Shown: positions 1-29,950 of the stretch, in pieces
How the letters are laid out: each line of letters starts with the position of its first letter
Position numbering within the stretch: the first letter of the stretch is position 1
Virus record (IMG/VR): IMGVR_UViG_3300044630_008075
Location: 1-32,533 of that record
DNA: 32,533 nt
Reading direction: 5' to 3' (one strand)
Source of the DNA: a virus
Position numbers and translations under genes: made by a program
The notes under the pieces: model-generated
The model's input: only the letters and a program-made list of their open reading frames with translations
Databases searched by the model: none
What the model was told of the DNA's origin: nothing

Positions 1-3000
1 AATATATTTTCTAATTCCTGTTGTATCACCACAACACGGCATCAATTCAAGATATACAACGGCTTGTGATGGTGTAACCGTAGGTGTTGGTGTTAGTGTT
101 CTTGTGGGAGTTATAGTTGGGGTGATGGTTGGGGTTCTTGTAGGAGTTATGGTTGGGGTGATAGAAGTTGTTGGGGTGATGGTTGGGGTTCTTGTAGGAG
201 TTATGGTTGGGGTGATAGAAGTTGTTGGGGTGATGGTTGGGGTTCTTGTAGGAGTTATGGTAGGAGTAATCGTTGGAGTTATCGAAGTTGTTGGGGTGAT
301 TGTTGGGGTAACCGTTGCAGTTCTAGTTGGGGTTATAGTTGGTGTCAATGTAGGAGTCACAGAGGTTGTTGGGGTGATTGTAGGTGTTATTGTTGGGGTA
401 ACTGTTGCTGTTCTTGTTGGGGTGATAGTCGGGGTTATAGATGTTGTTGGCGTAATTGTTGGTGTAACAGTTGTGGTTCTAGTTGGAGTAATGGTAGGGG
501 TAACTGATGTGGTAGGGGTAATTGTAGGAGTAATGGTAGGTGTTACAGTTGGTGTAACTGAAGTAGTTGGGGTTATCGTTGGAGTAACAGTTGCTGTACT
601 AGTTGGAGTTATGGTTCTTGTTGGAGTTATTGTTGGAGTTACGGTACTAGTAACTGTTGGAGTGATGGTTGGTGTAATAGAAGTGGTTGGTGTAATAGTC
701 GGTGTAATAGTTGGAGTAACAGTTGCCGTTCTGGTTGGTGTAATAGTAGGTGTGATAGAGTTTGTTGGCGTAATAGTAGGGGTAACTGTAGGTGTTCTTG
801 TTGGTGTGATTGTAGGTGTTATGGTTGGTGTAATTGAGGTCGTAGGAGTAATGGTAGGAGTAATGGTAGGTGTTACTGTACTTGTTGTGGTTGGGGTAAT
901 TGTAGGTGTTATACTTGTTGTTGGTGTTATGGTTGGGGTAACTGTTGCTGTTCTTGTTGGAGTAACCGTTGGGGTGATAGTTGGTGTAACTGAGGTTGTT
1001 GGAGTTATTGTTGGAGTAATTGTACTAGTGATAGTTGGAGTAACAGTTGCTGTCCTAGTTGGTGTAATAGAAGTGGTTGGGGTTATTGTTGGGGTTATCG
1101 TTGGAGTAACTGTTGCCGTTCTTGTTGGAGTAACGGTCGGTGTTATACTTGTTGTTGGGGTTATAGTTGGGGTAATTGTTGGTGTAACTGTTGCAGTTCT
1201 TGTTGGGGTAATGGTTGGTGTAACTGAGGTTGTTGGTGTAATTGTTGGAGTTATAGTTGGTGTAACTGTTGCAGTTCTTGTCGGTGTAACTGTTGGGGTT
1301 ACAGATGTTGTTGGAGTTATTGTTGGGGTAATTGTAGGTGTAATTGTCGGTGTAACTGTTGGGGTTACAGAAGTAGTTGGAGTGATAGTTGGGGTAATGG
1401 TAGGTGTTATGGTTGGTGTGATAGTGGTTGTTGGAGTAATTGTTGGAGTAACAGTTGCTGTCCTAGTTGGAGTTATAGAAGTTGTTGGTGTTATAGTAGG
1501 TGTAACAGTTGCGGTTCTTGTAGGTGTTATTGTAGGGGTAATAGACGTTGTGGGTGTAATTGTCGGTGTTATGGTTGGTGTAACTGTTGCGGTTCTTGTA
1601 GGGGTAATTGTAGGTGTGATAGAGGTTGTGGGGGTAATTGTAGGAGTAATAGTACTAGTAACTGTTGGTGTTATAGTTGGGGTAATGGTTGGAGTTACAG
1701 ATGTTGTTGGTGTTATTGTAGGTGTTATTGTTGGTGTAACAGTTGCGGTTCTAGTTGGTGTTACAGTTGGTGTAATAGAAGTAGTAGGAGTGATAGTAGG
1801 TGTAACCGTACTAGTGATGGTAGGGGTGATAGTAGGTGTAACTGATGTCGTAGGAGTTATGGTTGGAGTGATAGTAGGAGTTATAGTAGATGTTACAGTT
1901 GGAGTTATGGTTCTTGTTGGAGTAATGGTTGGAGTGGTGGTTGGGGTGATTGTAGATGTTACAGTCGGTGTAATGGTTGGGGTTACAGATGTAGTTGGTG
2001 TTATTGTTGGAGTTACTGTTGCCGTTCTGGTTGGTGTTATGGTTGGTGTTATAGAGGTCGTAGGAGTTATAGTTGGGGTAATGGTAGGTGTAATGGTTGG
2101 TGTTACCGTTGCAGTTCTTGTTGGTGTAATAGAAGTGGTTGGTGTTATTGTTGGGGTTATAGTCGGCGTAACAGTTGCAGTTTTAGTTGGAGTAATGGTC
2201 GGCGTAATAGAAGTTGTTGGCGTGATAGTTGGGGTTACCGTACTGGTAATGGTTGGAGTTATAGTAGGGGTAATTGTAGGTGTAACAGAAGTTGTGGGAG
2301 TTATAGTTGGAGTTACCGTACTAGTAATTGTAGGAGTTACTGTAGGAGTTACAGAAGTTGTTGGAGTGATTGTAGGTGTCAATGTTGGAGTAATTGTTGC
2401 CGTTCTAGTTGGAGTTATAGAAGTTGTTGGTGTTATCGTTGGAGTCACGGTTGGTGTAACTGTACTAGTAATTGTTGGAGTTACTGTTGGTGTTATAGAA
2501 GTTGTTGGGGTGATGGTTGGGGTAACCGTTGCCGTTCTTGTTGGAGTTATAGTAGGAGTTATAGATGTTGTGGGGGTGATGGTTGGTGTAATTGTAGGTG
2601 TCAATGTTGGAGTTATACTAGTTGTTGGGGTGATAGTCGGTGTTACAGTTGCAGTTCTAGTTGGAGTTACGGTTGGTGTTATAGAAGTTGTTGGGGTAAT
2701 AGTTGGAGTGATTGTAGGGGTAACCGTACTAGTGATTGTTGGTGTAATTGTAGGAGTTATAGATGTCGTTGGTGTTATGGTAGGGGTTATCGTACTTGTT
2801 ATTGTTGGAGTTACAGTTGCTGTTCTTGTTGGGGTTATACTAGTTGTTGGTGTTATAGTTGGAGTTACGGTAGGTGTTACTGTTGGAGTTCTTGTTGGTG
2901 TAACAGATGTTGTTGGTGTGATGGTAGGTGTAACCGTTGCTGTTCTAGTTGGGGTTATTGATGTAGTTGGAGTAATTGTTGGGGTAATGGTTGGAGTGAT

Positions 3001-6000
3001 GGTTGGAGTTACTGAGGTTGTTGGGGTGATGGTTGGGGTAACCGTACTAGTGATGGTTGGAGTTATAGTGGGTGTTATACTAGTAGTAGGTGTAATGGTT
3101 GGTGTAACTGTACTAGTGATAGTTGGGGTCTGAGTTGGTGTCAATGTTGGTGTAATAGATGTGGTAGGGGTTACTGTAGGTGTTACTGTTGAAGTTCTAG
3201 TGGGGGTTATTGTTGGGGTAATTGTAGGGGTTATAGATGTCGTTGGGGTAATTGTAGGGGTTATGGTCGGAGTAACCGTTGCAGTTCTAGTTGGAGTTAT
3301 AGTGGGAGTTACAGATGTAGTTGGAGTTATAGTAGGGGTTACGGTACTAGTAATTGTTGGTGTAACGGTTGCGGTTCTAGTCGGTGTAATTGAAGTTGTC
3401 GGAGTAATTGTCGGTGTCAATGTTGGTGTAACCGTTGCTGTTCTTGTTGGGGTAATTGTTGGGGTAACAGAAGTTGTTGGGGTGATTGTCGGTGTAACTG
3501 TCGCGGTTCTAGTTGGGGTGATGGTTGGTGTGATAGAAGTTGTTGGTGTAATAGTAGGTGTGATAGTTGGGGTAATTGTAGGAGTAACCGTTGCAGTTCT
3601 AGTTGGAGTTATAGAAGTTGTAGGTGTTATAGTAGGTGTTACCGTACTAGTGATGGTTGGGGTTATAGTTGGAGTTATAGTAGGAGTTATAGATGTCGTT
3701 GGTGTAATAGTAGGGGTTACTGTTGGAGTAACTGTTGCGGTTCTAGTTGGGGTAATAGTAGGAGTTATAGATGTTGTTGGTGTTATGGTTGGAGTGATGG
3801 TTGGTGTTACAGTACTAGTAATAGTTGGTGTAACTGTTGGTGTAATTGAAGTTGTCGGGGTGATTGTCGGTGTAACCGTTGGAGTTACGGTCGGTGTAAC
3901 TGTTGCAGTTCTGGTTGGTGTTATTGAAGTAGTTGGAGTAATGGTTGGTGTAATGGTTGGAGTAACCGTTGCAGTTCTAGTTGGGGTAATAGTGGGAGTT
4001 ATAGATGTTGTTGGTGTGATTGTAGGTGTAACGGTACTAGTAATAGTTGGGGTAATTGTAGGAGTTACAGAAGTTGTTGGGGTAATTGTTGGGGTTACTG
4101 TTGCCGTTCTAGTTGGTGTGATGGTTGGTGTTATACTAGTAGTTGGAGTAATAGTTGGAGTTACCGTACTAGTAATTGTGGGTGTAACTGTTGGGGTTAC
4201 AGAAGTGGTTGGTGTAATAGTTGGAGTTACGGTACTAGTAATGGTCGGTGTTATAGTTGGGGTTATACTAGTTGTGGGGGTAATTGTAGGAGTGATAGTA
4301 CTAGTAACTGTTGGTGTTCTTGTAGGGGTAATTGTTGGTGTAATAGATGTTGTTGGAGTAATTGTCGGTGTTACTGTACTAGTAACGGTTGGAGTAACAG
4401 TTGGTGTAATAGAAGTAGTAGGAGTAATGGTTGGGGTTACAGTTGCAGTTCTAGTTGGTGTGATGGTTGGTGTTATAGAGGTTGTTGGGGTGATTGTCGG
4501 TGTTACGGTACTAGTAATAGTTGGGGTTACAGTTGGAGTAATAGTTGGGGTAATAGATGTTGTAGGTGTGATTGTTGGTGTAATAGTTCTTGTTGGAGTA
4601 ACAGTTGGTGTAACCGTACTAGTAATTGTAGGTGTAACTGTTGGAGTCACAGAAGTGGTTGGTGTGATGGTTGGTGTTATAGTTGGTGTTACAGAAGTTG
4701 TGGGAGTTATAGTTGGTGTAACCGTACTGGTAATGGTTGGAGTTATAGTAGGGGTAATTGTAGGTGTAACAGAAGTTGTTGGGGTGATGGTTGGGGTAAT
4801 AGTAGGGGTAATTGTCGCCGTTCTGGTTGGTGTTACAGTTGGAGTTACTGAAGTTGTTGGGGTGATGGTTGGAGTAACCGTTGCAGTTCTAGTTGGGGTA
4901 ATAGTGGGAGTTATAGTTGGAGTTATAGTTGGAGTTACTGAGGTAGTTGGTGTAATAGTAGGGGTAATTGTACTCGTAATAGTTGGAGTTACAGTTGGTG
5001 TAACTGTTGGGGTCACAGAAGTTGTGGGAGTTATAGTTGGGGTTACCGTACTTGTAATGGTAGGTGTTATGGTAGGGGTAACTGAAGTTGTCGGAGTGAT
5101 GGTAGGTGTCAATGTTGGAGTAATTGTTGCCGTTCTTGTAGGTGTTATAGAGTTTGTTGGTGTTATGGTTGGGGTTATCGTACTTGTTATTGTTGGAGTT
5201 ACAGTTGCAGTTCTTGTTGGGGTTATACTAGTTGTGGGGGTAATTGTAGGAGTGATAGTAGGTGTTACTGTTGGAGTTCTTGTTGGTGTAACAGATGTTG
5301 TTGGTGTAATAGTAGGGGTAATGGTTGGAGTGATGGTTGGAGTTATAGAGGTTGTTGGCGTAATAGTAGGGGTTACTGTGGCAGTTCTTGTTGGAGTCAT
5401 TGTAGGTGTTATACTAGTAGTTGGAGTAATAGTTGGGGTTACCGTACTGGTAATTGTAGGGGTGATTGTAGATGTTACTGTAGGTGTTACTGAAGTTGTT
5501 GGTGTAATGGTAGGTGTAATGGTTGGTGTAACCGTTGCAGTTCTTGTTGGTGTAATGGTAGGAGTTACGGAAGTTGTTGGTGTAATAGTTGGTGTAACTG
5601 TGCTTGTGATTGTTGGTGTTACAGTTGGGGTGATAGTTGGGGTTACAGAAGTTGTGGGGGTTATTGTTGGAGTAATAGTTGGAGTTACTGTTGAGGTTCT
5701 AGTTGGTGTAATGGTAGGAGTAACGGATGTTGTTGGTGTGATAGTTGGAGTTATAGTCGGTGTTACCGTACTAGTAATGGTCGGAGTTATCGTTGGTGTA
5801 ACTGAAGTAGTTGGGGTGATGGTTGGTGTAACTGTACTAGTAATGGTCGGAGTAATGGTAGGGGTAATAGTACTAGTGATAGTAGGTGTTACCGTTGCAG
5901 TTCTGGTTGGAGTTACAGAAGTAGTCGGAGTAATTGTGGGTGTTACCGTACTAGTAATGGTTGGGGTAACGGTCGGTGTTATACTAGTAGTCGGAGTAAT

Positions 6001-9000
6001 TGTAGGTGTTACCGTACTAGTAATAGTTGGAGTTACAGTTGGTGTTATAGTTGGAGTTATCGAAGTTGTTGGGGTGATTGTTGGGGTAACCGTTGCAGTT
6101 CTTGTAGGGGTGATTGTTGGTGTTACGGAAGTTGTTGGTGTAATAGTTGGAGTTACTGTACTAGTAATGGTTGGAGTAACTGTTGGGGTGATGGTTGGTG
6201 TGATAGAAGTTGTTGGTGTAATAGTAGGTGTGATAGTTGGGGTAATTGTAGGAGTTATTGTTGCGGTTCTTGTTGGAGTTATCGAAGTTGTTGGGGTTAT
6301 CGTTGGGGTAATGGTACTAGTAATAGTTGGTGTTATTGTGGGTGTTATTGTTGGTGTAACAGAAGTAGTAGGTGTTATAGTTGGTGTCAATGTAGGAGTT
6401 ACTGTTGCCGTTATTGTTGGAGTAATGGTTGGTGTTACACTAGTTGTTGGGGTTATCGTTGGTGTAACCGTACTAGTAATAGTTGGGGTTACCGTACTAG
6501 TAATAGTAGGTGTAACAGATGTTGTCGGGGTGATTGTTGGTGTTATGGTCGGTGTGATAGTTGGTGTGACGGTTGCAGTTCTAGTTGGTGTTATTGATGT
6601 TGTTGGGGTAATAGTAGGTGTTACCGTACTAGTGATTGTCGGAGTAATGGTCGGTGTTACTGATGTTGTTGGTGTAATGGTAGGAGTTACTGTTGCAGTA
6701 ATAGTTGGGGTAATGGTTGGTGTTACAGATGTTGTTGGAGTTATCGTTGGAGTAACGGTACTTGTTATAGTAGGTGTAACTGTTGCCGTTCTTGTTGGTG
6801 TAATTGAAGTTGTTGGCGTGATAGTTGGGGTTACCGTACTAGTAATAGTAGGGGTTACCGTTGGTGTTATAGTTGGTGTTATAGATGTAGTAGGAGTGAT
6901 GGTTGGAGTTATTGTACTGGTGATTGTCGGTGTAACGGTTGGGGTTACTGAAGTAGTTGGAGTTATTGTGGGGGTCTGAGTCGGTGTCAATGTAGGGGTT
7001 ACTGAAGTAGTTGGAGTGATAGTAGGAGTTACAGTTGCGGTTTTAGTTGGGGTTACAGAAGTTGTTGGAGTGATAGTAGGTGTAACTGTACTAGTAATGG
7101 TTGGGGTCACAGTTGGTGTTATCGAAGTTGTTGGAGTAATAGTTGGAGTAATGGTTGGTGTAACTGTACTAGTAATGGTTGGTGTTACAGTTGGTGTTAT
7201 CGAAGTTGTGGGTGTAATAGTTGGAGTTACTGTTGCGGTTCTAGTTGGGGTAATAGTAGGAGTTATAGATGTTGTTGGTGTTATGGTTGGAGTTATTGTA
7301 CTGGTAATTGTCGGTGTAACGGTTGGGGTTACTGAAGTAGTTGGAGTAATTGTAGGAGTTACAGTACTTGTGATGGTTGGTGTAACAGTCGCAGTTCTAG
7401 TTGGTGTTACTGAAGTTGTTGGTGTTATTGTACTTGTTATAGTTGGAGTTACTGTTGGTGTAACGGTTGGTGTAATTGAAGTTGTTGGAGTTATTGTACT
7501 AGTAATGGTAGGTGTAACTGTTGGAGTTACAGAAGTCGTTGGTGTAATGGTAGGTGTAATGGTTGGTGTTACCGTTGCAGTTCTTGTTGGTGTAATAGAA
7601 GTGGTTGGTGTTATAGTAGGTGTTATCGTTGGGGTAACGGTACTAGTAATCGTCGGTGTTATAGTTGGTGTTACAGAAGTTGTTGGTGTTATAGTTGGGG
7701 TTACAGTACTAGTAATCGTCGGTGTTATCGTTGGAGTTACAGAAGTGGTTGGAGTTATGGTTGGCGTAATAGTAGGTGTAACTGTTGCAGTTCTAGTTGG
7801 AGTAACGGATGTTGTTGGGGTAATAGTCGGTGTAACAGTAGGTGTAACTGTTGCCGTTCTTGTGGGTGTGATTGTTGGTGTAATTGAAGTTGTTGGGGTT
7901 ATTGTTGGGGTAATGGTACTAGTAATAGTTGGGGTAATAGTCGGTGTAACTGATGTTGTAGGTGTGATTGTTGGTGTAATGGTTGGAGTAATAGTTGGAG
8001 TAACTGAAGTTGTTGGTGTAATGGTTGGAGTTATGGTTGCTGTTCTTGTAGGTGTAATGGTTGGGGTTATACTAGTTGTTGGGGTTATTGTTGGGGTAAT
8101 GGTACTAGTAATAGTTGGGGTAATAGTCGGTGTCAATGTTGGGGTTACTGATGTGGTAGGTGTAATTGTTGGAGTTATGGTACTAGTAATGGTTGGGGTT
8201 ACAGATGGAGTTACAGAGGTTGTTGGTGTCAACGTTGGTGTGATGGTTGGAGTGATGGTTGGTGTGATAGAAGTTGTTGGTGTTATTGTAGGTGTTACCG
8301 TACTAGTAATGGTTGGGGTTACAGAAGTTGTTGGGGTTATAGTAGGTGTGACAGTACTAGTAATAGTTGGAGTTATAGTTGGTGTAACTGAGGTTGTAGG
8401 GGTTATAGTTGGAGTAATAGTAGGAGTTACAGTACTAGTAATAGTTGGAGTTACTGTTGGTGTAACTGAATTAGTTGGTGTTATAGTTGGTGTAACCGTT
8501 GCAGTTCTTGTTGGAGTTACAGTTGGTGTAATGGTAGGAGTTATAGATGTCGTTGGGGTTATTGTTGGTGTGATAGTTGGAGTTACAGTCGGTGTAACCG
8601 TTGCAGTTCTTGTTGGGGTTATACTAGTAGTTGGAGTTATAGTTGAGGTAACAGTTGGTGTAACCGTACTAGTGATAGTTGGAGTTACGGTTGGGGTTAC
8701 AGAAGTTGTTGGGGTAATAGTTGGAGTAACCGTTGCAGTTCTAGTTGGTGTGATGGTTGGTGTAACAGAAGTAGTTGGAGTCACGGTTGGTGTAACTGTA
8801 CTAGTGATAGTTGGAGTTACGGTTGGGGTTACAGAAGTTGTTGGGGTTATGGTTGGGGTAATTGTTGGAGTTACTGTACTAGTAATTGTTGGGGTTACCG
8901 TAGGTGTCACCGATGTTGTTGGTGTAATAGTTGGGGTAATTGTAGGAGTTACAGTTGCGGTTCTAGTTGGTGTGATGGTTGGTGTGATGGAAGTTGTTGG

Positions 9001-12000
9001 GGTTATGGTTGGTGTTACCGTGCTTGTGATAGTTGGTGTAATTGTTGGGGTTACAGTAGGAGTTACGGAAGTTGTTGGTGTGATAGTAGGTGTAACTGTA
9101 CTAGTAATAGTTGGTGTGATGGTAGGAGTTATAGTGGGTGTAATTGAAGTTGTTGGTGTAATAGTTGGGGTAACGGTTGGTGTTACCGTACTAGTAATGG
9201 TTGGTGTTACAGATGTTGTTGGTGTAATAGTCGGTGTTACTGTTGCTGTTCTAGTTGGAGTGATGGTTGGGGTTACTGATGTTGTTGGAGTAACTGTAGG
9301 TGTTATTGTGCTAGTAATAGTTGGAGTTACTGTTGGTGTTACAGATGTAGTGGAAGTTATAGTTGGGGTAATTGTACTAGTAATGGTTGGTGTAACGGTT
9401 GCGGTTCTAGTCGGTGTAATTGAAGTTGTTGGTGTTACCGTACTAGTGATTGTTGGAGTTACTGTTGGTGTAACAGTTGGTGTAATTGAAGTTGTAGGGG
9501 TAACCGTACTAGTGATTGTTGGAGTAATTGTGGGTGTTACAGAAGTAGTTGGGGTTATGGTTGGAGTGATGGTTGGGGTTACGGTTGCGGTTCTAGTTGG
9601 GGTTATACTAGTAGTTGGTGTTATTGTGGGAGTAATTGTTGGTGTTACGGTACTAGTAATTGTTGGAGTTACAGTAGGAGTTACGGATGTTGTTGGTGTT
9701 ATAGTAGGTGTTACCGTACTAGTAATAGTTGGGGTTACAGTTGGGGTTACAGAAGTGGTTGGTGTAATTGTGGGTGTCAATGTTGGTGTTCTTGTTGGTG
9801 TTACAGATGTTGTAGGTGTAATAGTTGGAGTAACCGTACTTGTTATGGTTGGTGTAATTGTGGGTGTTATAGAGGTTGTGGGAGTTATAGTCGGTGTTAC
9901 GGTACTAGTAATTGTTGGTGTTACCGTTGGTGTTATAGTAGGTGTTACGGATGTTGTTGGTGTCACCGTTGGAGTTATTGTTGGAGTTACAGTCGGTGTA
10001 ACTGTTGAAGTTCTAGTTGGTGTAATAGAGGTTGTTGGTGTAATTGTGGGTGTTACGGTTGGGGTAACAGTACTAGTGATAGTTGGAGTTACGGTCGGAG
10101 TTATCGATGTAGTTGGTGTAATGGTTGGAGTTACAGTACTAGTAATAGTTGGTGTAATAGTTGGGGTGATAGTAGGTGTAACAGTTGGTGTAATAGAAGT
10201 AGTAGGAGTAATGGTTGGGGTTACAGTACTAGTGATAGTTGGAGTTATGGTTGGAGTTACTGAGGTTGTTGGCGTAATAGTGGGAGTTATTGTTGGAGTA
10301 ACGGTCGGTGTAATTGAAGTTGTAGGAGTTATAGTTGAAGTTATAGTAGGAGTTGTTGTGGGGGTCTGAGTCGGTGTCAATGTAGGGGTTACTGAAGTTG
10401 TTGGGGTGATTGTAGGTGTTACTGTACTTGTTATGGTTGGAGTTACAGTAGGAGTCACAGAGGTTGTAGGTGTAATAGTAGGAGTAACGGTACTTGTTAT
10501 GGTTGGGGTTACCGTAGGAGTAATCGATACGGTTGGGGTAACTGTAGGAGTTACAGTACTAGTGATAGTAGGTGTTACCGTTGCAGTTCTGGTTGGTGTT
10601 ATTGAAGTAGTTGGAGTAATGGTTGGTGTTACTGTACTAGTAATAGTTGGGGTTATAGTTGGGGTCACCGAAGTAGTTGGTGTGATGGTAGGTGTAACCG
10701 TACTAGTAATTGTCGGTGTAACTGTAGGTGTAATAGTCGGGGTTACGGTACTTGTTATTGTTGGGGTAATTGTTGGAGTTCTAGTTGGTGTTACCGATGT
10801 AGTTGGAGTTATAGTAGGTGTTACGGTACTAGTAATAGTTGGGGTTATAGTTGGGGTTATAGAAGTAGTAGGTGTGATTGTTGGAGTAACAGTACTAGTA
10901 ATAGTTGGAGTTACGGTAGGTGTTACGGATGCTGTAGGTGTGATAGTTGGTGTTTGTGTTGGTGTAGGTGACGGTATCATCGTATAATCAATGTCACATG
11001 ATGGTGCTGGTGTTTTTGATGGGGTAACTGTGGCGGTTGGTGTGATGGATGTAGTTGGTGTAATTGAAGTTGTTGGTGTTACAGTTGGAGTGACCGTACT
11101 AGTAATAGTTGGAGTTACAGTAGGTGTTATAGATGTTGTTGGTGTGATTGTGGGTGTTACAGTACTTGTAATGGTTGGGGTAATTGTTGGTGTGATAGTT
11201 GGAGTTACCGAAGTTGTAGGAGTAATAGTAGGAGTTACTGTACTAGTGATAGTTGGTGTAATAGTCGGTGTTACCGAAGTAGTAGGAGTTATAGTACTAG
11301 TGATAGTTGGAGTAACCGTTGGGGTAATCGTTGGAGTAACAGAAGTGGTTGGGGTAATAGTTGGTGTTACAGTTGCAGTTCTAGTGGGTGTAACCGTTGG
11401 AGTTATTGAAGTTGTTGGAGTAACTGTTGGGGTAATTGTTGAGGTAATAGTCGGTGTTACAGTACTAGTAATTGTTGGGGTTACCGAAGTTGTTGGAGTT
11501 ATTGTAGGTGTAACTGTTGCTGTTATAGTTGGAGTTATTGTTGGTGTCAATGTCGGAGTTACGGAAGTTGTTGGTGTTATAGTTGGGGTAACTGTGCTTG
11601 TGATTGTTGGAGTTACAGTTGGGGTAATTGATGTTGTAGGTGTTATAGTTGGGGTAATAGTACTTGTTATGGTTGGTGTTACAGATGTCGTTGGAGTTAT
11701 TGTGGGAGTTACGGTACTAGTAATTGTTGGTGTCAATGTCGGAGTTACAGAAGTTGTTGAGGTAACCGTTGGAGTTACAGTGCTTGTGATGGTTGGAGTT
11801 ATGGTTGGTGTAACTGAAGTAGTTGAGGTGATAGTTGGGGTAATAGTACTTGTTATGGTTGGTGTTATGGTTGGTGTAATTGAAGTTGTTGGTGTTACCG
11901 TACTTGTGATAGTTGGAGTTATTGTAGGGGTAATCGTTGGAGTCACAGAAGTAGTTGGAGTTATAGTACTAGTGATGGTTGGTGTAATGGTAGGGGTAAT

Positions 12001-14019
12001 CGTTGGAGTAACTGAGGTTGTTGGGGTTACGGTTGGTGTTATAGTTGGAGTTATTGTTGAAGTAATTGTGGGGGTGATGGTGGGGGTTACTGAAGTAGTT
12101 GGTGTTATTGTTGGTGTTACCGTACTAGTGATAGTGGGAGTTTGTGTTGGTGTCTCTGAAGTAGTGGGAGTTATAGTACTAGTGATGGTTGGTGTAATGG
12201 TAGGGGTAATCGTTGGAGTAACTGAGGTTGTTGGGGTTACGGTTGGGGTAACAGTACTGGTGATAGTGGGAGTTTGTGTTGGTGTCTCTGAAGTGGTAGG
12301 TGTAACGGTTGGTGTTACAGTACTAGTAATTGTTGGGGTTTGTGTTGGAGTTACTGAAGTAGTTGGAGTTATAGTTGGTGTAACTGTACTAGTGATTGTT
12401 GGTGTGATAGAAGTGGTTGGCGTAATAGTTGGTGTTACGGTACTAGTAATAGTTGGTGTAACAGATGTTGTAGGTGTTATAGTTGGGGTAACCGTTGCAG
12501 TAATTGTTGGGGTTTGTGTTGGTGTTTCTGAAGTTGTAGGAGTTATTGTTGGTGTTATAGTACTAGTAATAGTTGGGGTCTGAGTTGGAGTTTGTGTTGG
12601 TGTCTCTGAAGTAGTTGGAGTTATTGTTGGTGTTATAGTACTAGTAACAGTTGGGGTAATGGTTGGTGTTATAGAAGTGGTTGGCGTAATAGTTGGTGTT
12701 ACGGTACTAGTAATAGTTGGTGTAACAGATGTTGTAGGTGTAACTGTGGGTGTTTCCGTACTTGTAATGGTTGGAGTAATAGTTGGGGTTTGTGTTGGAG
12801 TCTCCGAAGTAGTAGGTGTGATTGTTGGTGTTACCGTACTAGTAATTGTTGGAGTAATGGTAGGAGTTTGTGTTGGTGTTTCTGAAGTAGTTGGAGTAAT
12901 GGTGGGAGTAATTGTACTAGTGATTGTTGGTGTTATAGTTGGGGTAACTGTAGGGGTTATAGAAGTGGTTGGAGTAATAGTCGGTGTTACAGTACTAGTA
13001 ATTGTTGGGGTAATAGTTGGGGTTTGTGTTGGTGTTTCTGAAGTTGTAGGAGTTATTGTTGGTGTTATAGTACTAGTAATAGTTGGGGTCTGAGTTGGAG
13101 TTTGTGTTGGTGTCTCTGAAGTAGTAGGAGTTATAGTTGGTGTAACCGTACTAGTAATCGTAGGGGTTACAGTTGGAGTAACTGTAGGTGTTTCCGTACT
13201 AGTTGGAGTAACTGAGGTTGTTGGTGTTATAGTTGATGTTATAGTTGGAGTAACCGTTGCAGTAATAGTTGGGGTTTGTGTTGGAGTCTCCGAAGTAGTA
13301 GGGGTTATTGTTGGGGTTACGGTACTAGTAATCGTTGGTGTGATAGTTGGAGTTTGTGTTGGCGTTTCTGAAGTTGTAGGGGTAACTGTAGGTGTTACCG
13401 TACTAGTAATAGTCGGTGTAACTGTTGGTGTTTGTGTTGGGGTTTCTGAAGTAGTGGGTGTAATTGTCGGTGTTACAGTACTTGTTATGGTTGGAGTAAC
13501 TATGGGTGTTTCTGATACGGTAGGTGTAATAGTTGATGTTACGGTTGGGGTTTGTGTTGGTGTTTCTGAAGTAGTTGGAGTTATTGTTGGTGTTATTGTT
13601 GAGGTAATAGTTGGGGTTACAGTACTAGTGATTGTTGGTGTGTTAGTTTGAGTTACGGTACTAGTAATTGTAGGCGTAATTGTTGGAGTTACTGAGGTGG
13701 TTGGGGTAATAGATGGTGTTAACGCCGGTGTTCTTGTAATTGTTGGAGTAATGGTTGGTGTTAGTGTTGGTGTTCTTGTAATTGTTGGGGTTAAAGATGG
13801 AGTAGCGGTTGGAGTTGGGGTTGGACATGGAACTTCGGCGTAACATGTTTTGTCTAAATTACTAAAATAAACTGAATATGTTCCTAAATAATAATTTGTG
13901 TCATAATAATACGGCATGACAACGGTACCAATATTAATTGTACCACCCGAACAAGGATAGTAGGTAATAACCGCAGTCTCTCCACCATAATTTCCTGTAT
14001 TAATCTTTATTATCGCCAT
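1..14019 (-). CDS. Giant Thr/Pro-repeat protein, putative tail fibre or stalk (3' end outside window)
   Basis: The ATG at 14019-14017 is preceded directly by an in-frame TAA (14022-14020), so it is the first possible start. From there the minus frame shows no stop to base 1: 4,673 codons, and the gene continues beyond the window. Residues 1-65 form a small non-repetitive, Tyr/Gly/Thr-rich domain (starts MAIIKINTGNYGGETAV, ends CYAEVPC). Residues 66-4650 are a Thr/Pro array. Residues 4651-4673 (SQAVVYLELMPCCGDTTG...) open a new Cys-containing domain that is cut off. There is no signal peptide or membrane segment. The gene lies 116 bases downstream of a baseplate gene whose own C-terminus carries the same Thr/Pro words, which suggests a virion-associated, surface-exposed fibre, whisker or mucin-like stalk. 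Virion location and function are inferred; the intact frame is seen directly. Alternatives: a secreted or cell-surface decoy, or a tether. I know of no characterised family with this architecture. Confidence 0.88.
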   Translation of the reverse strand, partial: MAIIKINTGNYGGETAVITYYPCSGGTINIGTVVMPYYYDTNYYLGTYSVYFSNLDKTCYAEVPCPTPTPTATPSLTPTITRTPTLTPTITPTITRTPALTPSITPTTSVTPTITPTITSTVTQTNTPTITSTVTPTITSTITPTITPTTSETPTQTPTVTSTITPTVSETPIVTPTITSTVTPTITPTTSETPTQTPTVTPTITSTVTPTVTPTTSETPTQTPTITPTITSTVTPTITPTTSETPTQTPTITATVTPTITSTITPTTSVTPTSTETPTVTPTVTPTITSTVTPTITPTTSETPTQTPTQTPTITSTITPTITPTTSETPTQTPTITPTITSTVTPTITPTTSITPTVTPTITPTITSTITPTITPTTSETPTQTPTITPTITSTVTPTITPTTSETPTQTPTITPTITSTETPTVTPTTSVTPTITSTVTPTITPTTSITPTITPTVTSTITPTITPTTSETPTQTPTQTPTITSTITPTITPTTSETPTQTPTITATVTPTITPTTSVTPTITSTVTPTITPTTSITPTITSTVTPTITPTTSVTPTQTPTITSTVTPTVTPTTSETPTQTPTITSTVTPTVTPTTSVTPTITPTITPTITSTITPTTSETPTQTPTITSTVTPTITPTTSVTPTITPTITSTITPTITPTVTPTTSVTPTITPTITPTITSTITPTTSVTPTITPTITPTITSTVTPTTSITPTITPTITSTITPTITSTTSVTPTITPTITSTVTPTVTSTTSVTPTLTPTITSTVTPTITPTTSVTPTITSTITPTITPTTSITPTVTPTITSTVTPTITPTTSVTPTLTPTITPTITATVTPTITPTTSVTPTITSTVTPTITSTITPTVTPTTSITPTVTPTRTATVTPTITPTTSVTPTITPTVTPTITSTITPTTSVTPTITPTITSTVTPTITPTTSVTPTITPTITPTITSTVTPTITPTTSITPTVTPTITSTVTPTVTPTTSITPTTSITPTATVTPSKTPAPSCDIDYTMIPSPTPTQTPTITPTASVTPTVTPTITSTVTPTITPTTSITPTITPTITSTVTPTITPTTSVTPTRTPTITPTITSTVTPTITPTVTPTITSTVTPTITPTTSVTPTITPTITSTVTPTITPTTSITPTRTATVTPTITSTVTPTVTPTVSITPTVTPTITSTVTPTITPTTSVTPTVTPTITSTVTPTITPTTSVTPTLTPTQTPTTTPTITSTITPTTSITPTVTPTITPTITPTTSVTPTITPTITSTVTPTITPTTSITPTVTPTITPTITPTITSTVTPTITPTTSITPTVTPTITSTVTPTVTPTITPTTSITPTRTSTVTPTVTPTITPTVTPTTSVTPTITPTVTPTITSTVTPTITPTTSITPTITPTITSTVTPTITPTTSVTPTRTPTLTPTITPTTSVTPTVTPTITSTVTPTITPTTSVTPTVTPTITSTVTPTITPTITPTTSITPTRTATVTPTITPTITPTTSVTPTITPTITSTVTPTTSITPTVTPTVTPTITSTVTPTTSITPTRTATVTPTITSTITPTITSTTSVTPTVTPTITSTITPTVTPTTSVTPTITPTRTATVTPTITPTTSVTPTITSTVTPTVTPTITPTTSITPTITPTITPTITSTVTPTITPTTSVTPTVTPTITPTITSTVTPTITPTTSITPTITPTRTATVTPTITPTITPTTSVTPTVTPTITSTVTPTITPTITPTTSVTPTVTPTITSTVTPTVTPTTSVTPTITPTRTATVTPTITPTTSVTPTVTPTITSTVTPTVTSTITPTTSITPTRTATVTPTVTPTITPTITPTTSITPTITPTVTPTRTATVTPTITPTNSVTPTVTPTITSTVTPTITPTITPTTSVTPTITPTITSTVTPTITPTTSVTPTITSTVTPTITPTTSITPTITPTITPTLTPTTSVTPSVTPTITSTITPTITPTTSVTPTLTPTITPTITSTITPTITPTTSITPTITPTRTATITPTITPTTSVTPTITPTITPTITPTTSVTPTITPTITSTITPTITPTTSITPTITPTRTATVTPTVTPTITPTTSVTPTRTATVTPTITPTITPTTSVTPTITPTITSTVTPTITPTTSVTPTITPTITSTVTPTITPTITPTTSITPTRTATVTPTITPTITPTTSVTPTVTPTITSTITPTTSITPTVTPTVTPTITSTITPTTSVTPTRTATVTPTITSTVTPTITPTTSVTPTVTPTITSTITPTITPTTSITPTITPTRTATVTPTITPTTSITPTVTPTITSTVTPTITPTITPTTSITPTVTPTITSTVTPTITPTTSVTPTKTATVTPTITPTTSVTPTLTPTQTPTITPTTSVTPTVTPTITSTITPTITPTTSITPTITPTVTPTITSTVTPTITPTTSITPTRTATVTPTITSTVTPTITPTTSVTPTITPTITATVTPTITPTTSVTPTITPTITSTVTPTITPTTSITPTRTATVTPTITPTITPTITPTTSVTPTITSTVTPTITSTVTPTITPTTSVTPTITPTITATVTPTLTPTITPTTSVTPTITPTITPTITSTITPTITPTTSITPTRTATITPTITPTITPTITPTTSITPTITPTVTPTITSTVTPTITPTTSVTPTITPTRTATVTPTITPTTSITPTITPTVTPTITSTVTPTITPTTSITPTVTPTITSTVTPTITPTTSVTPTRTATVTPTITSTITPTITPTITSTVTPTITPTTSVTPTITPTITSTVTPTITPTITPTTSVTPTITPTRTSTVTPTITPTITPTTSVTPTITPTVTPTITSTVTPTITPTTSVTPTITPTRTATVTPTITPTITPTTSVTPTVTSTITPTITSTVTPTITPTTSITPTMTPTRTATVTPTITPTTSITPTITPTITPTITPTTSVTPTRTPTVTPTITPTITPTTSITPTRTATVTPTITSTITPTITPTNSITPTRTATITPTLTPTITPTTSVTPTITPTITSTVTPTITPTTSVTPTVTPTVTPTITSTITPTITPTTSVTPTITPTITPTITPTRTATVTPTITPTTSVTPTVTPTRTATITPTITPTITPTTSVTPTITPTITPTITSTVTPTITPTTSVTPTITPTITPTTSVTPTVTPTITSTVTPTVTPTRTITPTITPTTSITPTITPTVTPTITSTVTPTITPTTSITPTITPTRTATVTPTITPTTSITPTVTPTVTSTVTPTITPTTSITPTITPTRTPTVTSTITPTITPTTSITPTITPTITSTVTPTITPTTSVTPTVTPTITSTVTPTITPTTSITPTITPTRTATVTPTITPTTSVTPTITPTITSTVTPTITPTTSITPTITPTRTATVTPTITPTITPTTSITPTRTATVTPTVTPTVTPTITPTTSITPTVTPTITSTVTPTITPTITPTTSITPTITPTRTATVTPTVTPTITPTTSITPTITPTITPTITSTVTPTITPTTSITPTRTATVTPTITPTITPTITPTTSITPTITPTRTATVTPTITPTTSVTPTITPTRTATVTPTLTPTITPTTSITPTRTATVTPTITSTVTPTITPTTSVTPTITPTRTATVTPTITPTITPTTSITPTITPTITPTRTSTVTPTVTPTTSITPTLTPTQTPTITSTVTPTITPTTSITPTITPTITSTVTPTITPTTSVTPTITPTITPTITPTTSITPTRTATVTPTITPTTSVTPTRTPTVTPTVTPTITPTTSITPTRTATVTPTITSTITPTITPTTSITPTITPTITSTVTPTITPTITPTTSITPTVTPTRTATVTPTITPTTSITPTLTPTITPTITPTTSITPTITPTRTATVTPTITPTTSITPTVTPTITSTVTPTVTPTITPTTSITPTRTATITPTLTPTITPTTSVTPTVTPTITSTVTPTITPTTSVTPTITPTITPTITSTVTPTITPTTSITPTITPTKTATVTPTITPTITPTTSITPTRTATVTPTITPTITPTITPTTSITPTITPTRTATVTPTITPTTSVTPTITPTVTSTITPTTTPTITPTRTITPTVTSTITPTITPTITPTTSVTPTITPTITSTVTPTITPTTSITPTVTPTRTATVTPTITPTITPTTSVTPTITPTITPTVTSTITPTITPTTSITPTITPTRTATVTPTITPTITPTTSITPTITPTRTATVTPTITPTTSITPTRTATVTPTITPTTTITPTITPTITPTITPTTSVTPTVTPTITPTITPTITPTTSVTPTVTPTRTATVTPTITPTITPTTSVTPTITPTRTATVTPTITPTITPTTSITPTVTPTRTATVTPTITPTITPTTSITPTRTATVTPTITSTITPTITPTTSVTPTITPTVTPTRTATVTPTITPTTSITPTITPTTTSTVTPTITPTITPTTSITPTITPTITPTRTPTVTPTITPTNSITPTITPTRTATVTPTITPTITPTTSITPTITPTVTSTVTPTITPTRTITPTSTATVTPTITPTTSVTPTVTPTITPTITPTTSVTPTITPTRTTTVTPTITPTTSITPTITPTRTATVTPTITPTITPTTSVTPTLTPTITPTRTATVTPTITPTTSITPTITPTITPTRTPTITPTTSITPTITPTRTPTITPTTSITPTITPTRTPTITPTITPTRTLTPTPTVTPSQAVVYLELMPCCGDTTGIRKYI
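119..260 (-). repeat. 54-bp tandem repeat, 2.6 copies
   Basis: Two identical 54-bp units (119-172 and 173-226) are followed by an identical 34-base part of a third (227-260). Each unit encodes 18 residues of Thr/Pro array at its C-terminal end. Base-perfect identity contrasts with the codon-scrambled repeats elsewhere and indicates a recent duplication. Confidence 0.9.
6966..10398 (-). repeat. 43-bp long-range direct repeat pair (6966-7008 and 10356-10398)
   Basis: Two identical 43-base stretches lie 3,390 bp (1,130 codons) apart. Each includes the rare TQT word, with plus-strand ggggtctgag. A third, partly similar site at about 3125-3153 has the same ggtctgagt...ggtgtcaatgt core, 3,846 bp from the 6966 copy. 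They may mark a higher-order duplication of roughly 3.4-3.8 kb, since overwritten by drift. Confidence 0.6.
10969..11019 (-). other. Non-repeat island inside the Thr/Pro array (residues 1001-1017)
   Basis: The 17 residues SKTPAPSCDIDYTMIPS break the Thr/Pro pattern. They contain the only Cys (residue 1008), Asp, Tyr and Lys found between residues 66 and 4650. The island ends in IPS followed by PTPT. The neighbouring baseplate gene (14136-18683) enters its own Thr/Pro stretch with the similar CIIPSPTPT, so the island looks like a second array junction. It could be a linker remnant, a crosslinking or processing site, or a fusion scar. The sequence does not decide between these. Confidence 0.8.
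11957..12246 (-). repeat. 80-bp direct repeat pair, 210 bp offset
   Basis: Bases 11957-12036 and 12167-12246 are identical over 80 bases. The 210-bp offset is 70 codons, so the reading frame and the two-residue Thr alternation are both kept. Confidence 0.88.
12407..12741 (-). repeat. 71-bp direct repeat pair, 264 bp offset
   Basis: Bases 12407-12477 and 12671-12741 are identical over 71 bases. The 264-bp offset is 88 codons. It lies in the N-terminal part of the array and overlaps the region of the 510-bp-offset duplication, so several exchange events have occurred here. Confidence 0.85.
12506..13125 (-). repeat. 110-bp direct repeat pair, 510 bp offset
   Basis: Bases 12506-12615 and 13016-13125 are identical over 110 bases, the longest exact duplication I found. 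The 510-bp offset is 170 codons. Both copies carry the SETPTQTP and TPTQTPTQTP words typical of the N-terminal part of the array. Confidence 0.88.
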
Positions 14020-14135: not shown

Positions 14136-17100
14136 TTACGGAGTAGTTGTTGGTGTTGGTGTTGGTGTTGGTGTGGGTGTGGGTGTGATACATGTTGGAT
14201 TTGCAGGAGCAGAGTTTGCTTGACATACAAAGTTAGTTAGGTTTGGATATAAAATAAGTGCTGCCGCCTCTATTTCCGCACAAGATGCTCCATTATTACC
14301 TTCTATTACGATACCGTTTGAACAGAATTTTGCATAATAAATTGATGCCGTAGTTGGTGTTGGTGTAACTGAAGTTGTGGGGGTGATGGTTAGTGTTGGT
14401 GTAATGGTTCTTGTTGGAGTAACAGTAGGTGTGACCGTTCTTGTTGGTGTAGGACTAGGTATTATACATTCAAATGGAAAATCATCTAACGATGAATCAC
14501 TTGGTGGGGTTGGACACCATGTTGGGTCGGTATAATATTGTCCTAAATTAAAATCAATATTAGGGTGAACATTGTACTTATGTCTCATTAATATTTGTTG
14601 GTCTGAATTTCCATCAAATACAACAACATGTTCAACATTTAAATCAACATTATTTTTTTTGAAATTTAAATTAAAATATAAATCAGAATTACAATAATTT
14701 AAATCAACATTTATAACTTCAATTAATTCACCATATTGATTTATTAAATAATCCCCATGGTTATATAATTCTTTTCCGTGGTCACAGCAAGGGTCAATAA
14801 AATTTTCCGGTTTTATTTGTAATTCTTCAGGGAATCTATCGTCGAAATGATAAATACTATTTGTTATTTGTCCATAATCTTCAATTAATCTATTTGTATA
14901 AACTCTTAATTCAGTATTTGGTAGAACTTCAAATATTTCATAATCACCATTAGATGTTAAACCGGTTATTAAACTTTTTTTAACAGAAGATAAACATTCC
15001 TTATCAGTAACCTGCAATTTGGTATAAGTAAACGTGGATGAATATCCACTAACAATACCATCTTGTAGATTTTGATTTGTAAATCCACTACACGGTGTAT
15101 AATCCGCCGATAAAATATATTCACCAACCGATAAATCACAAACACTTTTTTCAACAATTGTTCCTCCGGTTATATATGATTCGATATTATATCTAGTTGT
15201 TGTATTGTTAATGGTTACACCAGATGCCATTGTTAAAACAATAGAATCACATTTTAATCCATAATCAAAATTAGATTTATATTCTACTTTAGGTTGAATG
15301 GTATATCCCGTGTAATTATCACAATATGTTGACCCAGTTAATGTTGATATGGTATTTCCACTACTACCTTGATATCCTGAAATTTGAAAAATTTCATTAT
15401 GACTTTTACCGCATGGGTCGTGTTCAACTTTTGCCGTTAATCCTTCGATTCTGAATTTAACTTCTTTGTTCGCTCCATCAATAATATTAAAATCAATTAT
15501 ATCCGTATCGGTTACTCCTGTTATTTTAAAAACACAATCACTTACTTTTTCAATATAAATGTCAGCGTTTTCATTGTATCCATTAACACAATTCGCATAG
15601 ATATAGTATGACCAGTTTGTTCCGTTTTGTACTCCAACTTTTGTTGAGCCGATTACTTCAATATATAAATCAGTAACTAATTGACAGTACTCAGGATTAA
15701 CACAATAATAATCACCATTTGTAGTAACTTCAACACTAATTTTATCACTATTTTTTGTTACATTATATTCACTTTCAAATCTATAATCAAAATAATCCTT
15801 AACCGAACAATCTCTAACACCATATTTTATTGATGAGAATTTTATTTTTTTCTTACCATCAACATCCGTAAAAAATTCATATGTAATTAATGGTTTGTAT
15901 TCCCATTCATAAGTTGACCCACTCGTTGCTGCGGTGTAAGGTGCATAATTTTCATATCCAGCAGTATAACCTGTAACGGATTTATTCACAACATTATCAA
16001 TTAAATCAATAAGAGACACAACCCATAAAGTTTCAATTGTGTTAACATCAGGTTCTAAATAATCTTTATAATTACAAATAAGTGGAAGTACGGTTGTACT
16101 TGTATTTAAATCGGTACAACCCGTCTGTGGAAACGATGGATAATTAAATAATTGAGCACTAACACCAGAGTATGATGTTGACCCACTAACCGTTATTGTG
16201 TCACCTGTAAAAATAATCCCATCAATTTCAATGATTGGATAATAACTAACACCAGTAATTGAAACTAAATCCCTAAAATTATTTTCTTCACCAATTAATG
16301 TTTCTAAATCTTCTTCGATTACCGTTTCAAAATCTGGATATAATTCCTCAATAAACTGTAATGGTTGGCAATCTAATTTATATTGGTATTTTGGTCTACC
16401 CAAAACATTATTTTCAATTAAATTACCACCTGTCCAAAGTGTAGTTGACGGAATTATTTGCTCAAGTAATTGAGCCCAATATGGTGATAATCTATCTATA
16501 AATTCATATGAATCAATAAAATGATATGAAGTAAATCCTGTTTGACTAAAATAATCACTATAAACATCTTCAAGTTGGATATAATTCTTTTTATATCTAA
16601 TTTTATTTGAATTGAATACAAGTTTATTTACTGCACTATCAATAAATTGTGCAAATGTTATACCTGTTTGTGGGTGTAACGTATTTGAACCGAAAGATAA
16701 TTCAAGTTCTCTACCTTTTCTAAAAATATCATAATCAACCGCTCTAGATGATGAAATATACGCACCAATATTTTTTCTTTGTAAAATAAGTGATGAATCA
16801 TCCTCAACATTACTACCTTTTTTATTGTCAATAACGGGTGTTAATCCGTAACCTGTATCTAAACCGGGTAAAGTTCTAAAATTATCAAAATAATCCTCAC
16901 CATATGTATATGGTTTGTTTTTTGTTTTAATTGTTTTAGTTCTACCTGTTAATATTGAATTTTCCGTATCGAGAATTGATGGTGAACGGTGAGATAATGT
17001 GTTATCGTACCATCCAGAACCAGCACCAAAGAAAATATTTTCAGTTGTGTTGAGTGCTCTTCTAGGTAAACCTGTGATTTCATCAACGGGATAACCAACT

Positions 17101-18683
17101 CTATCGAATGTTGTAGTTGCAGTGTATGTTACTTTGTTATATGTAAAACCTGTGGTGTCAAATACCGCATATGTGTATGTTTTTTCACCTATAATAACAT
17201 CATAAATGTCTTTTTGTAAATCAAAACTTGCCGGCATTGATGTTACTTTGTAAACATACTCATCAATCTTTATAAGTGGTTCTGGTGCTCCTAAAAACTT
17301 TAAGAAAAAGTTAATTGATGACTTTGTTCCTTTTGATTTAAAAATATATGCTAAGTTTACAAGAAGTCTTCTGTAAAATTCGTATTCAGCTTCAATTAAA
17401 TTGTAACCATTTGATACCCCACCATAACTTGAATTAGTTCTGGAATAAAGTACTTCGTCTAATGACTTCTCATCAAATAATGGTACACCGGAAAGTCCAA
17501 TATTTTCCGCCAAATTCTTTAATAAAACATCAGGTAAGTTATTAATACCGTCATAACTTACATTTCTCATGTAAGCAATATTATCAATGAATTTTTTTAC
17601 ACTATCAAAACTTTGACCATATAATTGAAATACGCTTTGTGCCTTTTGGTCATCGGTATCAAATTCAAATAATTGTGGTGCGGCTAAAAATCTAACCATT
17701 AAGTTAGATTTGTAATCATCAATTTCATCTGATATTGAACTTAGATTACGAACATAACTTTCATAATCAATACCTGAAATTTGTACGTTCCAACCATCTG
17801 CACTTACCGGCCAGCTATATTGTACATTAACAAGAGACGTTTTACTGTTGTCCGAACTATCTCTCGGTACTTGGAAATTAGATGAATAAATTGGATTTGT
17901 ATCCCTATTCATTAATGATTCTTCCAAATCGTCCAATCCACTAAAAAATTCTTCGACCATACCATCGTTTGGTCTAAATAAAAGATTCGAACTATATGGT
18001 TGGGTATTGAATAATCTACCGGAAACAACAAATTTAATCTGATTGTTATTGTTTGGTTCGGAGTATTCAAGGATTGGATATGGTTCTCCGTCAACAATTA
18101 CAACATATTTTGTATATGACGAATAAAAATTTCTTATCTCATTTTCTGTTGCCGGTTTAATAATACTATTTGGAGTTATAAAAGCAATTTCAAATGGATT
18201 AAAAATTTTACTTCTTTCAACATAAAAAGTTGTTTTATTTAAATTTGTATCGTATGTTACATTTAATGCACTATATATACTATTACCGATAGGACTATTG
18301 GTATCAACATAAAATCCAGCAGGAAATTTATTTATTATTTTTTCTATTGAAACTAATATTCTACTTTTTAAAGAACCAAATAACGATTTATCCGCATTTT
18401 TTTTGTTTGATTTGAATTTAATCTCATCACTTCTTTTTTTAGAAACAGATTGGTTAGTGGTTGGAGCACCACTTTCCTCTTTTAATGTATCTAATGTTAA
18501 AAATTTAGAAAATGGATTTGTTTTGAAAGTTTTTGCATCCTTTTCGGGAATCACTTTGTCTAACTCAAAGACAGTATTAGTAAGCGCAGATGTTCCGTCA
18601 GTAATTTGTCTACCAACTAAAAAATCACTAAATGTTTCAGCTCCACTAGCTACTTGGCTAGGTACTTTCCTTTTTACTGTCAT
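14136..18683 (-). CDS. Large baseplate/tail protein with Thr/Pro C-terminal tails
   Basis: 1,515 residues. The ATG at 18683 overlaps the previous stop as TAATG, which fixes the start. Residues ~430-470 (YRRLLVNLAYIFKSKGTKSS, then FLKFLGAPEPL) resemble the Arg...Lys-Gly-Thr segment of P2 gpI-type baseplate proteins. This fits a large baseplate wedge or fibre-attachment role but is a weak similarity. The middle is rich in Tyr, Asn, Thr and Gly with scattered Cys, suggesting beta-sandwich repeats. Residues ~1405-1447 are a Thr/Pro linker (PSPTPTRTVTPTVTP...), followed by a small domain with three Cys and a terminal run of TP repeats. The linker words match those of the giant gene downstream. Likely the structural neighbour or attachment partner of that fibre; this is inference from order and shared sequence. 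Confidence 0.8.
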   Translation of the reverse strand: MTVKRKVPSQVASGAETFSDFLVGRQITDGTSALTNTVFELDKVIPEKDAKTFKTNPFSKFLTLDTLKEESGAPTTNQSVSKKRSDEIKFKSNKKNADKSLFGSLKSRILVSIEKIINKFPAGFYVDTNSPIGNSIYSALNVTYDTNLNKTTFYVERSKIFNPFEIAFITPNSIIKPATENEIRNFYSSYTKYVVIVDGEPYPILEYSEPNNNNQIKFVVSGRLFNTQPYSSNLLFRPNDGMVEEFFSGLDDLEESLMNRDTNPIYSSNFQVPRDSSDNSKTSLVNVQYSWPVSADGWNVQISGIDYESYVRNLSSISDEIDDYKSNLMVRFLAAPQLFEFDTDDQKAQSVFQLYGQSFDSVKKFIDNIAYMRNVSYDGINNLPDVLLKNLAENIGLSGVPLFDEKSLDEVLYSRTNSSYGGVSNGYNLIEAEYEFYRRLLVNLAYIFKSKGTKSSINFFLKFLGAPEPLIKIDEYVYKVTSMPASFDLQKDIYDVIIGEKTYTYAVFDTTGFTYNKVTYTATTTFDRVGYPVDEITGLPRRALNTTENIFFGAGSGWYDNTLSHRSPSILDTENSILTGRTKTIKTKNKPYTYGEDYFDNFRTLPGLDTGYGLTPVIDNKKGSNVEDDSSLILQRKNIGAYISSSRAVDYDIFRKGRELELSFGSNTLHPQTGITFAQFIDSAVNKLVFNSNKIRYKKNYIQLEDVYSDYFSQTGFTSYHFIDSYEFIDRLSPYWAQLLEQIIPSTTLWTGGNLIENNVLGRPKYQYKLDCQPLQFIEELYPDFETVIEEDLETLIGEENNFRDLVSITGVSYYPIIEIDGIIFTGDTITVSGSTSYSGVSAQLFNYPSFPQTGCTDLNTSTTVLPLICNYKDYLEPDVNTIETLWVVSLIDLIDNVVNKSVTGYTAGYENYAPYTAATSGSTYEWEYKPLITYEFFTDVDGKKKIKFSSIKYGVRDCSVKDYFDYRFESEYNVTKNSDKISVEVTTNGDYYCVNPEYCQLVTDLYIEVIGSTKVGVQNGTNWSYYIYANCVNGYNENADIYIEKVSDCVFKITGVTDTDIIDFNIIDGANKEVKFRIEGLTAKVEHDPCGKSHNEIFQISGYQGSSGNTISTLTGSTYCDNYTGYTIQPKVEYKSNFDYGLKCDSIVLTMASGVTINNTTTRYNIESYITGGTIVEKSVCDLSVGEYILSADYTPCSGFTNQNLQDGIVSGYSSTFTYTKLQVTDKECLSSVKKSLITGLTSNGDYEIFEVLPNTELRVYTNRLIEDYGQITNSIYHFDDRFPEELQIKPENFIDPCCDHGKELYNHGDYLINQYGELIEVINVDLNYCNSDLYFNLNFKKNNVDLNVEHVVVFDGNSDQQILMRHKYNVHPNIDFNLGQYYTDPTWCPTPPSDSSLDDFPFECIIPSPTPTRTVTPTVTPTRTITPTLTITPTTSVTPTPTTASIYYAKFCSNGIVIEGNNGASCAEIEAAALILYPNLTNFVCQANSAPANPTCITPTPTPTPTPTPTTTP

Positions 18684-29944: not shown

Positions 29945-29950
29945 ACCAAT

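Follow-up and report, generated by a model that had tools for sequence, protein, structure and literature searches.

Organization of the tail block and the giant gene

The stretch of DNA analysed here (the window) is the whole of an IMG/VR virus record of 32,533 bases that is classed as linear, a class that often denotes a fragment, and one of its ends falls just beyond a very long repetitive array. All genes described in this section lie on the minus strand. A gp25-like baseplate wedge protein (29492..29962; phrog_261, 1.2e-18; PF04965) and a gp6/Baseplate_J-like baseplate wedge protein (27655..29490; phrog_6, 4.4e-21; PF04865) are followed by tail-block proteins of 1407 aa (23367..27590), 592 aa (21589..23367), 268 aa (20789..21595) and 387 aa (19626..20789), all of unknown function; the latter three had no family match, and the 1407-aa protein had no match among annotated phages at E 1e-5. 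The block continues with a 305-aa conserved phage protein (18683..19600), present in 414 confirmed viral stretches, and with a 1515-aa protein (14136..18683) that ends in a TP run and has a single weak PHROG match, to a family of unknown function. The giant gene begins 116 nt after this 1515-aa gene, on the strand common to gp25 and gp6. Beyond gp25 lie a GNAT-like gene and a gene of a PHROG ribonucleotide-reductase family (31241-32494). Relatives of the latter were 78-92% identical among the 80 viral loci kept, and it shares 67% identity with its counterpart in Microcystis phage Mel-JY01 as compared to 26% for the gp6 gene; judging from these identities, it may have been transferred between phages.

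A preliminary description of this DNA reported an unbroken minus-strand frame starting at the ATG at 14019 and containing one Thr/Pro array of 4,585 residues, and both observations were confirmed. The frame runs for 4,673 codons to base 1 with no stop codon, leaving it open where the window ends, and the array, with limits now set by a sliding Thr/Ser-parity rule, spans residues 66-4656 (52..13824, minus strand; 4,591 aa) and is recognized by its register, Pro spacing and codon pattern. The array was also thought to be flanked by globular ends, which holds for the N-terminal domain (residues 1-65; 13825..14019, minus strand), whereas the C-terminal end is merely begun in the window and is complete in relatives. 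The last 17 residues of the window (4657-4673; 1..51, minus strand; '...VYLELMPCCGDTTGIRKYI') are the start of a further domain, the first of the C-terminal ones, which is cut by the record end, and comparable domain starts were seen in the related loci L007 and L110. A leftward extension of the contig, previously suggested as a way to find the stop codon, was searched for past base 1, but no continuing contig was found and the stop codon is absent from the window. The 4,673 residues comprise 2,289 Thr, 861 Pro, 589 Ile, 343 Val and 328 Ser. Plus-strand ORFs between 104 and 12583 were rejected as real genes, being Val/Gly-rich mirrors of the array.

The N-terminal domain was predicted by AlphaFold2 to form a small six-stranded beta sandwich (pLDDT 89.7), and its structural matches were generic Ig/FN3-like sandwiches with Z scores of at most 6.5. 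The last 159 residues of the complete 5,472-aa relative L110 were likewise predicted to be beta-rich, with a moderate pLDDT of 65.7, and the Foldseek rows obtained for this model were not significant. Foldseek gave no match for the end-domain models at E<=0.001, and Pfam gave none at E<=0.1 for residues 1-65 or for the last 159 aa of L110; another 172-aa C-terminal stretch gave a sub-threshold Pfam row only (E 0.014). When solved structures were searched by sequence, the N-terminal profile returned one insignificant match (E 0.65) and the C-terminal profile none. Tape measure proteins are long and mainly helical, and this identity was ruled out for the giant protein by the 37% Pro at the X positions of its Thr/Ser-X array and by its beta-predicted ends.

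A two-residue register encoded by scrambled codons

Thr or Ser occupies 2,287 of the 2,295 positions of one parity in the window array, while all 857 Pro residues of the array lie on the opposite parity and the Pro-Pro spacing is even in 856 of 856 cases, mostly with a distance of 4-8 residues. When the array was cut at residue 4641 and its residues were shuffled 1,000 times, at most 1,364 Thr/Ser fell on one parity as compared to the 2,282 of 2,288 observed, indicating that the register did not arise by chance. The same register was present in all 17 sequences measured, ranging from 216/227 to 1,264/1,266; this set consists of the window and 16 loci, some of them partial and one (L113) a near-copy of L110, with L030, which has only 26 residues, L378 and further near-identical copies from phages already represented left out. 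Occasional Pro residues of wrong parity or odd spacings occur in relatives (e.g., 6/789 in L115 and 1/193 in L025), and L115 carries one parity shift near residue 76. The filling of the X positions varies between relatives (P/I/V, P/N/V, P/N/L/I, or P/V/S), and their Pro share ranges from 33 to 49% across the 17 sequences. What is conserved is thus that every second position bears a hydroxyl residue and that Pro takes up a third to half of the remaining ones.

In the Thr/Ser-parity codons of the window, diversity was 0.148 at the first, 0.016 at the second, and 0.682 at the third codon position, so that the amino acid is kept while synonymous sites are nearly saturated, which points to purifying selection acting on the register. 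Between array positions, codon identity was close to that of codon shuffles at most lags (60 shuffles per sequence), with small excesses at a lag of 22 residues in the window (0.392 vs. 0.367) and of 18 residues in L118 (0.447 vs. 0.382). Tandem-repeat periods among the rows listed were multiples of 6 nt, with one exception of 33 nt, and the array DNA of the window holds no exact 120-base duplicate. Owing to the near-random choice of synonymous codons, the protein repeat is barely a repeat at the DNA level; this scrambling may result from selection disfavouring DNA repeats, or simply from the age of the array. The array thereby offers a natural case of a highly repetitive protein made from barely repetitive DNA.

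Relatives, full length and soundness of the assembly

A tblastn search of viral contigs with residues 1-65 found 29 related loci, and a profile scan with the same domain gave 138 confirmed loci, of which 80 were kept. None of 178 pattern matches in cellular genomes (genome contigs) was confirmed by tblastn, and neither the N-terminal domain nor the last 159 aa of L110 had a match in annotated phages at E 0.1; a scan with a Microcystis-phage gene gave no match either. Complete relative frames encode proteins of 5,472 aa (the identical protein on three contigs), 4,989 aa, 2,940 aa and 2,737 aa, and the N-terminal domain of the 4,989-aa relative is 97% identical to that of the window. Their complete C-termini consist of several small Cys-rich domains with further TP linkers between them. 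As 342-677 residues follow the array in these four kinds, we estimate from the comparison that the full window protein is probably about 5,000-5,330 aa long.

Several features of these data could be read as signs of a functionless assembly or repeat-expansion artefact: the region is rich in repeats, the contigs of many relatives end within the array, and indels end the frame at 4,267 and 4,248 aa in two contigs (G003 and G010) of the phage represented by reference L021. For that phage, 13 of 14 contigs, the reference included, nevertheless agree completely over the initial 10,195 nt of the gene, while the fourteenth (L024) differed from L021 by 170 mismatches in 7,890 sites, departing from the 13 otherwise near-identical contigs in the later part of the array. 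This agreement and the absence of 120-base duplicates led us to reject the artefact, which is highly improbable also in view of the codon-position diversity, a mark of selection on the protein.

Apparent replacement of the array and TP fusions to a tail-block protein

One relative, L031 (contig 3300033994_001077), is 96.7% identical to the window across 15.9 kb, up to approximately codon 79 of the giant gene (about 13770..13790, minus strand). Past this point, the two arrays are unrelated in letters, being of the TPTITPTTSV and TPTNTLTPTNT types. This loss of identity points to replacement of the array between close relatives, perhaps including the C-terminus.

Thirty-eight loci, many of them near-identical, extend beyond the gene for the 1515-aa homologue; extensions of this protein were surveyed in 16 loci. 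In the ORF lists of array carriers, the 1515-aa homologue is followed directly by the giant gene. Seven loci (L064, L068, L075, L086, L098, L099, and L101) carry other proteins at this place and have no separate giant gene there. Three of them have a 1515-aa homologue that is itself extended, by 1,210 aa (L064), 1,284 aa (L075), or 959 aa (L086), the added part starting with TP arrays followed by further sequence; L098, L099, and L101 carry a TP-rich extension of 161 aa, and L068 has one of just 27 aa that is not TP-rich. The TP-rich extensions of L072 (820 aa) and L074 (790 aa) continue without a stop until the contig ends, as does the 1515-aa homologue of L108 and L058. Moreover, L078 possesses both a 291-aa extension and a giant gene, and L083 combines a 324-aa, mostly non-TP extension with the start of a giant gene. 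The TP extensions indicate that a TP module serves within a tail-block protein in relatives, and no other observation speaks as strongly for the giant protein having a role in the tail.

A putative tail-associated tether

We consider it probable that the giant protein is a tail-associated tether of a large contractile-tailed phage, and a virion tether is the best reading on the basis of gene position and of the TP fusion to the neighbouring tail-block protein. The virion fibre proposed in the preliminary description is thus retained as regards its place in the tail/baseplate block, on one strand with gp25 and gp6, although a tether would describe the product better. In the proposed arrangement, the beta-sandwich N-terminus would be the probable anchor on the virion side, seated on the tail apparatus with the N-terminus presumably directed inwards, and the Thr/Ser-X array would act as a single, very long hydrophilic and presumably flexible linker that provides reach. 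The C-terminal Cys-rich domains would probably contact the host surface or an extracellular polymer as candidate binding modules, and the linker would widen the radius of cell capture by the virion. A further and less certain step would be the glycosylation of Thr/Ser residues by enzymes of the phage.

Fully stretched, the array would measure 1.42-1.56 micrometres, while the root-mean-square span of a worm-like chain is 40-176 nm for assumed persistence lengths of 0.5-10 nm. The filament of 1.4-1.5 micrometres envisaged earlier is therefore a stretched upper limit only; a flexible chain would span approximately 40-180 nm, and a rigid rod is not supported. A rigid micrometre-scale filament built from extended beta strands, one face of which would carry the Thr/Ser residues, would agree with a two-residue register held over thousands of residues, as a beta strand would want. 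However, Pro at 33-49% of the X positions would break the hydrogen bonds of a sheet, and the other X residues change from I/V to N between relatives, leaving no conserved hydrophobic face, so that we regard an ordered fibre as unlikely. Instead, the mostly 4-8 residue spacing of Pro argues for a flexible or mucin-like chain, and the exchange of X residues among relatives (I/V, N/V, N/L, and V/S) with Thr/Ser and Pro kept fits a linker better than a packed sheet.

Some observations speak against the tether. Neither end domain significantly matches a known binding fold, several relatives are without a separate giant gene, and the strict two-residue register exceeds the needs of a plain disordered linker, which may reflect an ordered structure or the requirement of an enzyme. 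The product might also act outside the virion, as a coat or glue protein that is produced during infection and either secreted or set free by lysis, and the many glycan-related genes of the relative G001 would suit such a role. In contrast, no signal peptide is apparent by eye on the giant protein, although some proteins of G001 have N-termini that resemble signals by eye, and a type IX sorting domain is encoded elsewhere in this relative. Moreover, the gene lies within the tail block, and relatives carry TP modules joined to the adjoining tail-block protein; a non-virion product is hence improbable. If the tether is confirmed in virions, the phage spends a 16.4-kb gene on it, of which some 14 kb encode a single linker, and, if true, a tethered adhesin with a reach comparable to that of a tail would alter models of host capture in dilute lake water. 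The replacement at codon 79 together with the fusions to the neighbouring tail protein suggests how adhesive ends may be swapped.

Possible glycosylation of the array

The giant protein has a long, low-complexity region rich in Thr, Ser, and Pro, which is a mucin-like (PTS) trait. We therefore considered a phage mucin, in which Thr/Ser would be O-glycosylated by PF11397 enzymes of the phage to give a hydrated bottlebrush that is stiff and resists proteases; such a mucin would complement the tether reading and does not oppose it. PF11397 comprises what we take to be GT60-type glycosyltransferases, and its characterised members modify Thr or hydroxyproline. Two adjacent PF11397 genes were found in four of nine records (G001, G003, G006, and G007), all of them array carriers and representing approximately two phage types, and G001 has further sugar genes. 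PF11397 is absent from the other five (G002, G004, G005, G008, and G009), from all ten window proteins scanned, and from all 21 clade records (G004 among them), which include at least five array carriers (L055, L078, L083, L005, and L008) and are linear records, often fragments. Moreover, the five searched clade contigs without PF11397 all still show the TP-pattern.

Among PF11397 contigs of 75 kb or more, 23 of 31 had the TP-pattern, as compared to 4 of 14 controls of 50 kb or more that lack PF11397 (Fisher p 0.0075); the PF11397 set consists of the best 80 of 166 contigs, and the sets are unmatched for length or lineage. These 14 controls remained from 17 of at least 50 kb, 6 of them with the TP-pattern, after three that have PF11397 were set aside, and with controls of at least 75 kb only the comparison was 23/31 vs. 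3/9 (p 0.044). In addition, an ORF with a TP linker lay within 3 kb at 5 of the 80 PF11397 loci (L194, L204, L205, L214, and L216). Pooled over all tested records, leaving out L225/G059 (from the immuto-gp6 set of mostly short contigs), the counts were 25/34 vs. 9/19 (p 0.077), and the association between PF11397 and the TP-pattern is suggestive only. O-glycosylation of the array is plausible but unproved, and we regard the phage mucin as a tentative possibility. The fullest version, in which a bottlebrush tether would be O-glycosylated by the phage's own PF11397 enzymes and encoded by scrambled codons, with array and adhesive end exchanged wholesale between close relatives, is more doubtful. 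Such a bottlebrush would have an estimated mass of about a megadalton if densely glycosylated. Prolyl hydroxylation was rejected, as PF13640 occurs in only one of nine records, G004 (L075), which lacks a separate giant gene but has a TP extension.

Comparison with known systems

Mucins and other PTS-domain glycoproteins are long, repetitive and rich in Thr, Ser, and Pro, and have folded Cys-rich ends. The giant protein differs from them by its strict two-residue register and near-random codons, and no sequence relation between the two is shown. Closer counterparts are found in related lake phages, where proteins built from domains and TP linkers (e.g., two of G001, with 308 and 973 aa, and L380-L429) likewise have small, often Cys-containing domains joined by TP/SP linkers, and the N-terminal domain of L380-L429 is 50-64% identical to that of the giant protein. 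Their complete ORFs are 288-1,437 aa long, whereas the giant array alone has 4,591 aa, and outside the MAxxKINTGN group their longest uninterrupted Thr/Ser alternation is 8-142 aa. The TP-extended 1515-aa homologues (L064, L075, and L086) occupy the same tail-block slot and, like the giant protein, have TP arrays and then further sequence, but they are fused to the upstream protein and their extensions are 959-1,284 aa in all. The earlier view that no described phage structure is like this one must accordingly be narrowed, as related phages frequently possess small domains connected by TP linkers, and the giant protein is an extreme form of a known kind of phage protein. What is unusual, as judged from its sequence, is its length, strict register and scrambled codons, and no description of such a protein appeared in literature searches covering open-licence PMC papers.

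Flavobacterium phage immuto has genes named tail fiber and tail spike by its depositors in the block after its gp25 and gp6 homologues, which is a comparable place. This region of immuto shows no positive sequence similarity and no long Thr/Ser/Pro-rich ORF, with just minus-strand ORFs of 93 and 95 aa passing the filter. Of the eight window genes profiled, only gp6 and gp25 were recognisable in immuto, Microcystis phage Mel-JY01, and one uncultured phage. Unusual appendages are also known from the jumbo myovirus CBB, whose hair-like whiskers of 119.3 nm cover the tail surface and are described with no gene assigned to them (PMC5259590); they have no link to the giant protein. The Hoc fibres of T4 are Ig-like domains shown on the virion, and they are capsid-bound strings of domains of 18 nm, as opposed to one giant linker (PMC10385173).

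Genomic setting and host

In the 288-kb relative G001, the giant gene follows the same block and is itself followed on the same strand by genes for proteins of 854, 282, 973, and 716 aa, the first three of which are mosaics of domains and TP linkers. A tail sheath gene (PF04984) is located elsewhere on this contig. The PF18962 type IX secretion sorting domain was detected in four of the eight records tested, and to our knowledge the type IX secretion system is confined to Bacteroidota, which suggests a host of this phylum. The phage is thus probably a contractile-tailed phage infecting Bacteroidota. A PF18962 protein of G001 (C1:6674-8590; L120) has a signal-like N-terminus by eye, and the domain was also seen in G004, G011, and G012.

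On the G001 contig, 23 tRNA genes, with Thr(TGT) and Pro(TGG) included, lie at C1:573-5473 (L120), and an 844-aa protein with seven DUF5122 beta-propeller stretches is encoded near the tail sheath gene (C1:61770-64304; L123). Finally, C1:272967-274196 (L133:12967-14196) encodes a 409-aa protein that contains the catalytic domain of the RuBisCO large chain (PF00016, E 1.1e-31), and the surrounding region holds PF11397 and further genes related to sugars.
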